This document shows, one piece after another, positions 50,505 to 53,040 of a stretch of 64,000 nucleotides of DNA. The stretch lies in NCBI GenBank assembly GCA_025998875.1, contig AP024675.1, positions 310,001 to 374,000 on the forward strand. The letters run 5' to 3'. The notes under the pieces are model-generated. The model had not been told where the DNA came from. It did not search any database and worked only from the letters and a program-made list of their open reading frames with translations. Each line of letters opens with the position of its first letter. Within the stretch, counting starts at the first letter, position 1. Source of the DNA: Bacteroidota bacterium. GTDB lineage: Bacteria; Bacteroidota; Rhodothermia; JANXDC01. Both the position numbers and the translations under genes were made by a program.

Positions 50505-50968
50505 TCCTCATGGCCTGGCTCGATAAGCCGAATTCTGTCTACCCCGGTGCCCTGCCGGGGGAGGCCATCATTTCTCTGGGACCCCGGTCACCCGGGGCCT
50601 CAAGCGACCTACCCGTCCTGCTCGGCTCCATGGCCTGTTGGGCGTGCCACCCTTCTGCCGCTCAGCAAAGCGGGGGCCGGAATTGATCCGCCCCACAGCG
50701 GGCGCGGCACGCAGGACTGCTTGGTCTTGCACCCCGTGAGGGTTGCCGTGCCACCTGTGTCACCACAGGTGCGGTGGGCTCTTACCCCACCTTTTCACCC
50801 TTACCCCGTCCCCCGCGGGACGAGGCGGTCTGTTTTCTGTGGCCCTCTCTGTCGCCGATCCCTCGCGGAATCGGCGCCTTCCCGTTAGGAAGCACGGTGC
50901 ACTGCGGTGTTCGGACTTTCCTCCCCGGACCTCTGTCCGAGGCGATGGCCTGAGCCAGGCCTCTCTGG
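50505..50968 (-). ncRNA. rnpB: RNase P RNA (bacterial type A)
   Basis: Catalytic RNA that matures tRNA 5' ends. On the minus strand GAGGAAAGTCCG (about 50928-50917) is the 5' half of helix P4 and ACAGAATTCGGCTTAT (50540-50525) the conserved 3' end. GCCTGGCTC near the 5' end pairs with GAGCCAGGC near the 3' end as P1. The J-region GGGTAAGAGCCCACC and GGTGGCACGGCAACC segments are typical. Ends are estimated from P1 pairing and may be off by about ten bases. It lies between the zinc-ribbon gene and der. Confidence 0.95.
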
Positions 50969-50973
50969 TATAC

Positions 50974-51720
50974 TTACTGGGCCCGGATCAGGTTTCTTGC
51001 GTGCTCTTCGTAGAAGGCCTCGTCGATCAGGATCCGCCCGCAGTGCTCGCAGATCACGATCCGATTGTGCTGGCGGATCTCCAGCTGTCGCTGCGGGGGT
51101 ACGGCGTTGTAGCACCCGTCACAGGCGCCCCGTCGCACAGGCACGATCGCCCGTCCGTTACGCACCCCGCGCCGGATGCGCTCGTATGCCTGCCGCAGCC
51201 GGGGCTCAACACGCTGCAGGGCCAACTCGCGCTGGCCCTGCAGAAAGGCATATTCCTGCTCTGTCTCCGCCAGTACGGCCTCCAGCTCCCGGCGTTTGGC
51301 CTCCAGCTGGAGGCGCAGCTCCTGGAGCTTTTGCTCTGCCTCCTCGATGATCTCCATGTTGCGCAGGGTTCGGCCCGTGAGCTCTTCGATGCGTGTACGG
51401 GCATCGATAATGCGCTGTTTCTGTTCCTCGATCTCCTTGCTCAGGGCGTCATATTCCCGGCTATTGCGCACATGGAGCTGCTGTTGCTCGTAACGCTGAA
51501 TGAGCTCTTCGGCCGTTTTGATATCCAGCTCCAGCTGCCGACGCTCCACCTCAGCCTGCACGTTTTCCGTACGACATCGCTCCAGACGCGTCTCCAGCTG
51601 AGCGATCGTATCCTCTAGGTCGGCGATCTCATCGGGCAGATCCCCCTGAAGGCGATCGAGCTCATCGAGCCGGGTATCCACCCCCTGCAGTTCGACCAGC
51701 GCTTTGAGCTGTTCTATCAT
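50974..51720 (-). CDS. Coiled-coil protein with C4 zinc ribbon
   Basis: A 248-residue protein from the ATG at 51720. Residues 1-180 are a long antiparallel coiled coil (LQGVDTRLDELDRLQGDLPDEI ... EEQKQRIIDARTRIEEL). The C-terminus has two CxxC pairs: GACDGCYNAVPPQ and VICEHCGRIL. This plan (DUF164/CT398-like) is conserved in many bacteria, often beside nif3 and rnpB as here. Proposed roles include nucleic acid or secretion-apparatus binding; none is established for this group. Confidence 0.9.
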   Translation of the reverse strand: MIEQLKALVELQGVDTRLDELDRLQGDLPDEIADLEDTIAQLETRLERCRTENVQAEVERRQLELDIKTAEELIQRYEQQQLHVRNSREYDALSKEIEEQKQRIIDARTRIEELTGRTLRNMEIIEEAEQKLQELRLQLEAKRRELEAVLAETEQEYAFLQGQRELALQRVEPRLRQAYERIRRGVRNGRAIVPVRRGACDGCYNAVPPQRQLEIRQHNRIVICEHCGRILIDEAFYEEHARNLIRAQ

Positions 51721-51737
51721 GGTGGACTCCTTATATG

Positions 51738-52850
51738 TCACCCCACACGTTCCCTGCTTATATACAGGACCGGATTTTCCGCTCGAGCGACCCGACAGGC
51801 AAGCTTCGGGAAAGCCCTCCGGAGCCGTTCGGCCAGCACCTCGAGCACGGGCACCTCCGTCTCGTAATGTCCCGCATCGAGCAACCAGAGGGCCGCAGAG
51901 GCCTCCTGAAAGGTGTGATAACGCACATCGGCCGTGATCAACGCATCGGCCCCCTGCCGAGCGGCCACGGTCCAGAGGCTCGATCCGCTCCCCCCGCAGA
52001 CAGCCACCCGATGAATCCTCTCCTGGGGGCCCACCCCGTAGCGCAGCGCCTGTACATGCAGACGCTCGACCACATAGGCCAGAAACGCATCGGCCGGCAT
52101 CGGGTGGGGAAGCTCTCCGATCCGCCCCATGCCGGCCTCTGCAACGGGCTTCTCCAGCGGGTATACGTCCCAGACCGGTTCCTCATACGGATGCGCCGCG
52201 CGCAGCGCCTGCAGAACGGCCCCCAGCCGCCAGGCGGGCACCTGCATCTCTAAACGCACCTCTTCCACACGCCCCAGACGACCCACCTCCCCCAGGTGCG
52301 GTCGGGCCTCCTGCAGGGGGCGAAACAAACCCGTTCCCCGCACCTCAAAGGCGCACTCCTCGTAGGCGCCGATCCGCCCCGCCCCGGCATCCGCCATCGC
52401 GCGACGCAGTAGATCGACATGGGTCACGGGCACGAACACAACCAGCTTGCGCAGCATATTCGGCAGGGGATCAAGCACGCGCACGTTCTGCAGACCCAGA
52501 CGCGCGGCCAGAGCATCGTTTACCCCGCCCGGGGCCACGTCCAGGTTCGTGTGTGCGCTGTAGACGGCCCGGCCGGAGCGCACAAGCCGCATAAGCATGC
52601 GCCCGAGGGGCTCCTGCGAGGTACACCGACGGAGCGGATGGAATAAAGGGGGATGATGGGTCAGGATCAGATCAGCCGACCAGGCTTCGGCCTCAGCTAC
52701 CACCTCCTCGGTCAAATCCAGCGCCACGAGCACGCGATGTACTCCCTGATCCGGATCCCCCAGCTGAAGCCCCACATTATCGTATTCCATCGCCCAGCTC
52801 GGGGGAGCCCAGGACTCCAGGTATTCGATCAACTCGCGCAACGGGGCCAT
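51738..52850 (-). CDS. Nif3-like dinuclear metal-centre protein (YqfO type)
   Basis: A 370-residue protein from the ATG at 52850; the earlier GTG at 52865 is less likely. N-terminal NGG1p-interacting factor 3 half: LESWAPPSWAMEYDNVGLQLGD, ADLILTHHPPLFHPLRR (metal His pair), VYSAHTNLDVAPGGVNDALA. A PII/CutA-like insert (about 135-245) contains KLVVFVPVTHVDLLRRAMADAGAGRIGAYEECAF. The C-terminal half has VAVCGGSGSSLW, GADALITADVRYH and DAGHYETEV. Members are hexameric and have been proposed to act in GTP cyclohydrolase-like or metal/nucleotide roles; function is unsettled. A leader terminator precedes it. Confidence 0.93.
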   Translation of the reverse strand: MAPLRELIEYLESWAPPSWAMEYDNVGLQLGDPDQGVHRVLVALDLTEEVVAEAEAWSADLILTHHPPLFHPLRRCTSQEPLGRMLMRLVRSGRAVYSAHTNLDVAPGGVNDALAARLGLQNVRVLDPLPNMLRKLVVFVPVTHVDLLRRAMADAGAGRIGAYEECAFEVRGTGLFRPLQEARPHLGEVGRLGRVEEVRLEMQVPAWRLGAVLQALRAAHPYEEPVWDVYPLEKPVAEAGMGRIGELPHPMPADAFLAYVVERLHVQALRYGVGPQERIHRVAVCGGSGSSLWTVAARQGADALITADVRYHTFQEASAALWLLDAGHYETEVPVLEVLAERLRRAFPKLACRVARAENPVLYISRERVG

Positions 52851-52870
52851 AAGCGAAAACAACACCTCAT

Positions 52871-52904
52871 AAAAAAGGCACGTACCCTCGCTCCGGTACG
52901 TGCC
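52871..52904 (-). terminator. Terminator-like hairpin in the nif3 leader (possible attenuator)
   Basis: Minus strand: GGCACGTACC, loop GGAGCGAG, GGTACGTGCC, then TTTTTT, a perfect 10-bp stem. It lies about 50 bases after the predicted start of transcription and ends 20 bases before the nif3 ATG, so it would stop transcription before the gene unless relieved. Confidence 0.8.
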
Positions 52905-52955
52905 CTGTATTTTCCGCTGCGGTATGGAGGGCTACAGTTTCGCATGGACAGGTTT

Positions 52956-52986
52956 CAAAGTTAATCGACACGTATCTGCTTTGCAA
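52956..52986 (-). promoter_or_regulatory. Promoter of nif3 leader
   Basis: Minus strand: TTG (52986-52984), 20 bp, TAACTTTG (52963-52956), an exact -7 box. Transcription should begin near 52950. Confidence 0.75.
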
Positions 52987-53008: not shown

Positions 53009-53040
53009 TTGACAATGCTCACCGGGGGGGTGTAGTTTTA
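53009..53040 (+). promoter_or_regulatory. Promoter of the polysaccharide locus
   Basis: TTG (53009-53011, within TTGACA), 21 bp, TAGTTTTA (53033-53040), one mismatch from TAnnTTTG. It is divergent from the nif3 promoter with only 22 bases between the -33 boxes. The spacer contains a run of seven G. Confidence 0.65.

Follow-up and report, generated by a model that had tools for sequence, protein, structure and literature searches.

The pyrBI attenuator of Escherichia coli consists of a promoter, a leader frame, an intrinsic terminator overlapping or just after that frame and a structural gene, and a coupled ribosome keeps the terminator open (PMC4824070). In E. coli, when a stop codon lying 28 bp upstream of a terminator was moved to a distance of 5 bp, the efficiency of termination fell from ~90% to under 10%, and the stop-codon effect was gone, with terminator efficiency at its maximum, only beyond 27 nt (PMC4824070). 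Terminators located up to 100 bp into a coding region can act despite translation (PMC4824070), so timing is critical and the balance delicate; such a balance between terminator and translation would suit a sensor. In the trp, his and ilv leader-peptide attenuators, a short leader frame before the terminator is likewise translated. Screening for premature terminators has revealed further attenuators with a terminator in the 5′ leader, some of them with short ORFs, although the terms nif3, yqfO and 'Bacteroid' are absent from the main text of that survey (PMC2965389). In Bacteroides thetaiotaomicron, small ORFs (sORFs) in long 5′-UTRs have been likened to attenuation leader peptides (PMC7366714). 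No paper joining nif3 and a leader peptide was found among the open-licence papers searched.

Here we analysed the region upstream of nif3 in a 64,000-nt stretch of DNA (the window; G000:C1:310001-374000, where G000 is the genome itself). The only genome of the same genus that we found, G001, has a nif3 that is 71% identical, and its gene order around the leader is the same on both sides. The features of the window are given in Table 1. A sequence-only reading of this DNA had described a promoter directed toward nif3 and, about 50 nt further on, a perfect hairpin with six T and nif3 20 nt later, and both descriptions held when the positions were checked.

Table 1. Features of the nif3 leader and the genes behind it (positions within the window)
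Feature	Position	Strand	Details
Promoter, Bacteroidota type	52956..52986	-	TTG 52986-52984, 20-nt spacer, TAACTTTG 52963-52956
Candidate leader ORF	52829..52945	-	38 codons, ATG 10 nt after the -7 box
Terminator hairpin	52877..52904	-	10 perfect pairs, GCAC...GTGC near the foot
T6 tract of terminator	52871..52876	-	directly after the hairpin
nif3 (DUF34_NIF3, 370 aa)	51738..52850	-	Pfam PF01784, E = 1.5e-80
C4-type zinc-ribbon protein gene (COG1579-like)	50974..51741	-	Pfam PF02591, E = 8.8e-12
rnpB, RNase P RNA class A	50508..50961	-	just after the zinc-ribbon gene

Promoters of the phylum carry TAnnTTTG at -7 and TTTG near -33 (PMC7366714), and the nif3 promoter is of the right type for the phylum. 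Its spacing is identical in G001, where TTG-N20-TAACTTTA occupies the same place. A promoter scan of the window's genome, with an overall rate of 0.14 matches per kb of strand, recovered all seven independent sampled tRNA units, one of which has an identical TAACTTTG. Between the SLBB gene and rnpB, the nif3 promoter was the sole match on that strand in both genomes, and rnpB may therefore depend on it here. The scan revealed no promoter of rnpB's own in G000 or G001, the junction with the zinc-ribbon gene (50961-50974) included, and the RNase P RNA may arise by processing of a longer transcript. A divergent promoter, TTG-N21-TAGTTTTA (53009-53040, plus strand), faces the SLBB/polysaccharide export operon, and G001 has TTG...TAGCTTTG at the matching place. 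The zinc-ribbon gene overlaps the nif3 stop. Translation of nif3 might instead start at a GTG (52865), for which G001 gives no support.

The hairpin in the window grows to 12 pairs if one A-U and one G.U pair are counted, and it folds better than shuffled sequences do (z = -2.5). With a GC-rich stem followed by a U-tract, and with covariation in relatives, it has the properties of an intrinsic terminator. In G001, arms GCACGTGC/GCACGTGC and a T7 tract are found in the same place, in a leader that is 9 nt longer. The two stems differ by one compensatory change (A-U to G-C) and two one-sided changes, with no broken pair, while the loops are unrelated, which indicates that the stem is under selection. 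In 464 kb of G000, drawn from 20 sampled stretches, 19 terminator-like hairpins lay outside called genes, and only two promoter-terminator units had no ORF in between, namely the nif3 leader and a tRNA-Arg gene. A DNA search with the leader sequence found no second copy. Given the folding score, the conservation in G001, the rarity of such units in the 464 kb and the performance of the promoter scan, the association of promoter and hairpin is more than chance.

The same arrangement is widespread outside the genus. Of the 160 distinct nif3 leaders examined, 98, mostly from Ignavibacteria, had a terminator-like hairpin and U-tract immediately upstream of nif3, and the layout was found upstream of nif3 in most of the Ignavibacteria examined. 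The attenuator-like order proposed from the window alone, with promoter, terminator and nif3 together, thus recurs in G001 and in most of these Ignavibacteria; together with the covariation of the hairpin described below, this supports the attenuator reading well. The leader scan did not find the leader in the other Rhodothermia or at loci labelled Bacteroidales, and most of the 62 negative loci belong to other groups. Four loci scored as negative (L034, L042, L045 and L051) do have a hairpin, whose loop is too long for the scan; among 11 negatives in the class sample, the hairpin is shorter in three and lies further upstream in one, and in another a hairpin occurs but no U-tract follows it. 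In 526 kb around the relatives' loci, we found no other terminator that stood directly before a gene start without an upstream gene.

The window and G001 have hairpins of the main class, in which the foot reads GCAC...GTGC and the upper stem covaries. Both sides had changed in 36 cells of the upper stem compared with 11.5 in shuffles (0/500), although, because the hairpins were picked by complementarity, the choice itself accounts for part of the pairing percentage. The foot was invariant in 48 of 48 members of one hairpin class, against 1 of 27 other terminators nearby that begin in this way; the class was itself defined by GCAC, with which 47 of 96 hairpins begin. A covariance model of the hairpin gave the nif3 leader as the best match in all ten genomes tried, most of which were in the training set (G083 was not), and as the only match at E <= 1 in G000 and G001. 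As an observation in its own right, the foot of the nif3 leaders (GCAC/GTGC or GTGTYCC/GGRACAC) is conserved in sequence beyond a terminator's needs.

The sequence-only reading had held that no gene lies upstream for the hairpin to terminate. This was not quite right, since the relatives carry a leader ORF there and the window has an ATG equally far from the promoter. In 72 leaders, the -7 box was located without using ORF information, and the next ATG downstream was then taken as the start. In 71 of the 72, the frame so defined was free of stops up to a point at most 20 nt short of the hairpin, or past it; the other two frames were so in 5 and 18 leaders. In the relatives, the usual place of the stop is 0-20 nt upstream of the hairpin; it fell between 20 nt before and 6 nt into the hairpin in 60 of the 72 leaders and further in or past it in 11. 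The gap between box and ATG peaks at 10 nt in the relatives and is also 10 nt in the window and G001, so the message would be nearly leaderless. The leader peptides are ~15-45 aa long and basic (K 18%, R 9%), and in subgroups they keep a loose [KR]KF[LIFY] core through synonymous changes. In some leaders, U-runs occur at the KF codons; synonymous changes break the run in others, and the idea that the core is purely a U-run pause signal was dropped. In the leaders L195-L207, the stop reads AUAUGA one base before the terminator, where an AUGA start-stop overlap is possible.

The frame of the window, MRNCSPPYRSGKYRARTGARVRAFFMRCCFRLWPRCAS, lacks the KF core, continues across the hairpin and stops 22 nt into nif3, and that of G001 (43 codons) likewise runs through the hairpin into nif3. 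Open frames of this kind are expected by chance with P = 0.16 in the window and P = 0.26 in G001, and are not significant by themselves; it is from its position that the window's own leader ORF is presumed to be translated. The order of promoter, leader ORF, terminator and gene, with no second promoter, is clear in the relatives, and the ORF of the window takes its place in that order by position.

We consider it reasonably probable that this segment is a transcription attenuator of nif3, the zinc-ribbon gene and possibly rnpB, in which, on the simplest model, ribosomes translating the leader ORF counteract the terminator in the manner of pyrBI. RNA polymerase would start at the TTG/TAACTTTG promoter, transcribe the nearly leaderless short frame and then meet the intrinsic terminator just before nif3. 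A closely following ribosome at the end of the leader frame would cover the 5′ arm of the hairpin and allow read-through into nif3, the zinc-ribbon gene and possibly rnpB; if translation lagged or failed, a short RNA of ~75-90 nt would be released. Termination, leader translation and the role of translation as the switch are what we infer from the sequences, whose support consists of the promoter, the terminator, the conservation of both, the leader frame of the relatives, and the failure to find a second promoter or a conserved antiterminator. The leader ORF ends past the hairpin, or close enough for its ribosome to reach it, in 71 of 72 leaders, the reach being ~27 nt (PMC4824070). For ordinary genes at the same loci, the median distance from stop to terminator is 27 nt (17 cases).

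Other readings of the segment account for parts of these data. The short frame could be a micro-gene with a short mRNA of its own and a functional product, a basic peptide of 20-30 aa, nif3 then living on leaky read-through. The frame and its stop are kept in Ignavibacteria, and the basic composition and the KF core with its synonymous changes would fit such a peptide; yet in the window, G001 and several other loci the terminator comes before any stop codon of the frame, which would make the short RNA a non-stop message there. The five leader peptides tested matched nothing in Pfam or NCBIfam, and the pooled pN/pS of 0.62 for the leader is loose beside nif3, which is weak evidence, as the pairs were picked by hand and two of those for nif3, both involving L205, are not in frame. 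We regard a micro-gene as unlikely. A free small RNA acting elsewhere and ended by its own terminator, close to the ~80-nt RNA that the sequence-only reading had offered as an alternative, would explain why the promoter-terminator unit resembles that of a tRNA gene. This alternative fits less well than an attenuator: the body is conserved as a reading frame and not as RNA structure, the hairpin is found in front of nif3, and there is no Rfam match, which makes a free RNA very improbable.

The switch itself might be something other than a ribosome, for example a protein or RNA that binds the sequence-conserved foot of the hairpin. The contrast between 48 of 48 GCAC/GTGC feet in the class defined by GCAC and 1 of 27 terminators nearby speaks for such a factor, and ribosome blocking alone leaves the invariant foot unexplained; a switch without ribosomes, however, leaves unexplained why nearly every leader has a frame ending at the hairpin, and we give it little credence. 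Even less is to be said for a leader of the riboswitch or T-box type, which we find scarcely credible: the terminator does stand directly before the gene, but Rfam gave no match, and the terminator was the only conserved helix. Rfam searches identified rnpB alone in the window, and in the relatives searched nothing beyond rnpB and tRNAs, and ARAGORN found no tRNA in the window. Single-sequence folding gave weak alternative pairings of the 5′ arm that differ between G000 and G001. A covarying antiterminator, for which the sequence-only reading had proposed a search, was not found in relatives, where the terminator helix alone is common to the leader subgroups and the conserved partner of the hairpin is the reading frame. 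A structural antiterminator is thus unlikely and was dropped.

A broader form of the attenuator reading, which we put forward tentatively and with some doubt, is that an old, previously undescribed attenuator tunes DUF34/NIF3 and the zinc-ribbon protein, and in many species the cotranscribed RNase P RNA, to the state of translation by means of a nearly leaderless frame of 15-45 codons, with the foot also bound by a specific factor. The zinc-ribbon gene lies downstream of nif3 in 56 of 56 relatives that carry the leader, and DUF34 in general has COG1579 as its most frequent partner (PMC8469502). In many relatives, rnpB follows the two genes. The suggestion that the hairpin influences rnpB as well agrees with the window, where rnpB follows without a promoter of its own, but does not extend to all leader-bearing relatives: rnpB lies ~4 kb upstream of nif3 in two Melioribacteraceae (L050 683-1114; L067 734-1152) and was not found within the loci L040, L062, L069 and L085. 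We therefore dropped rnpB as a conserved target.

NIF3/DUF34 proteins are ubiquitous, and their role is debated, a metal chaperone or insertase having been proposed (PMC8469502). A leader kept across two Bacteroidota classes would help to learn when a cell needs more NIF3, and what the zinc-ribbon partner does. It would also give the phylum, in which control of this kind has been little studied, an attenuator with a leader ORF and a defined set of sequences for tests.

Taken together, the comparison suggests an attenuator that employs a leader ORF. The leader-peptide attenuators of trp, his and ilv share with it the short frame before a terminator, which is translated in those operons and would be translated here. 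Unlike them, the nif3 leader has no run of codons for a single amino acid, as judged from the peptides and their composition, and no mutually exclusive antiterminator helix, and nif3 is not an amino-acid operon. The attenuators from premature-terminator screening (PMC2965389) resemble it in general layout. The leader sORFs of B. thetaiotaomicron belong to the same phylum but to other genes, with no nif3 case in the part of that paper used here (PMC7366714). The closest likeness is to pyrBI, whose order of elements it shares, whose coupled ribosome provides the mechanism proposed for nif3 (PMC4824070), and whose leader ORF passes through the hairpin as that of the window does. It differs from pyrBI in its genes and phylum, in a nearly leaderless frame, in a terminator foot conserved in sequence, and in showing no clear evidence of UTP-sensitive pausing.
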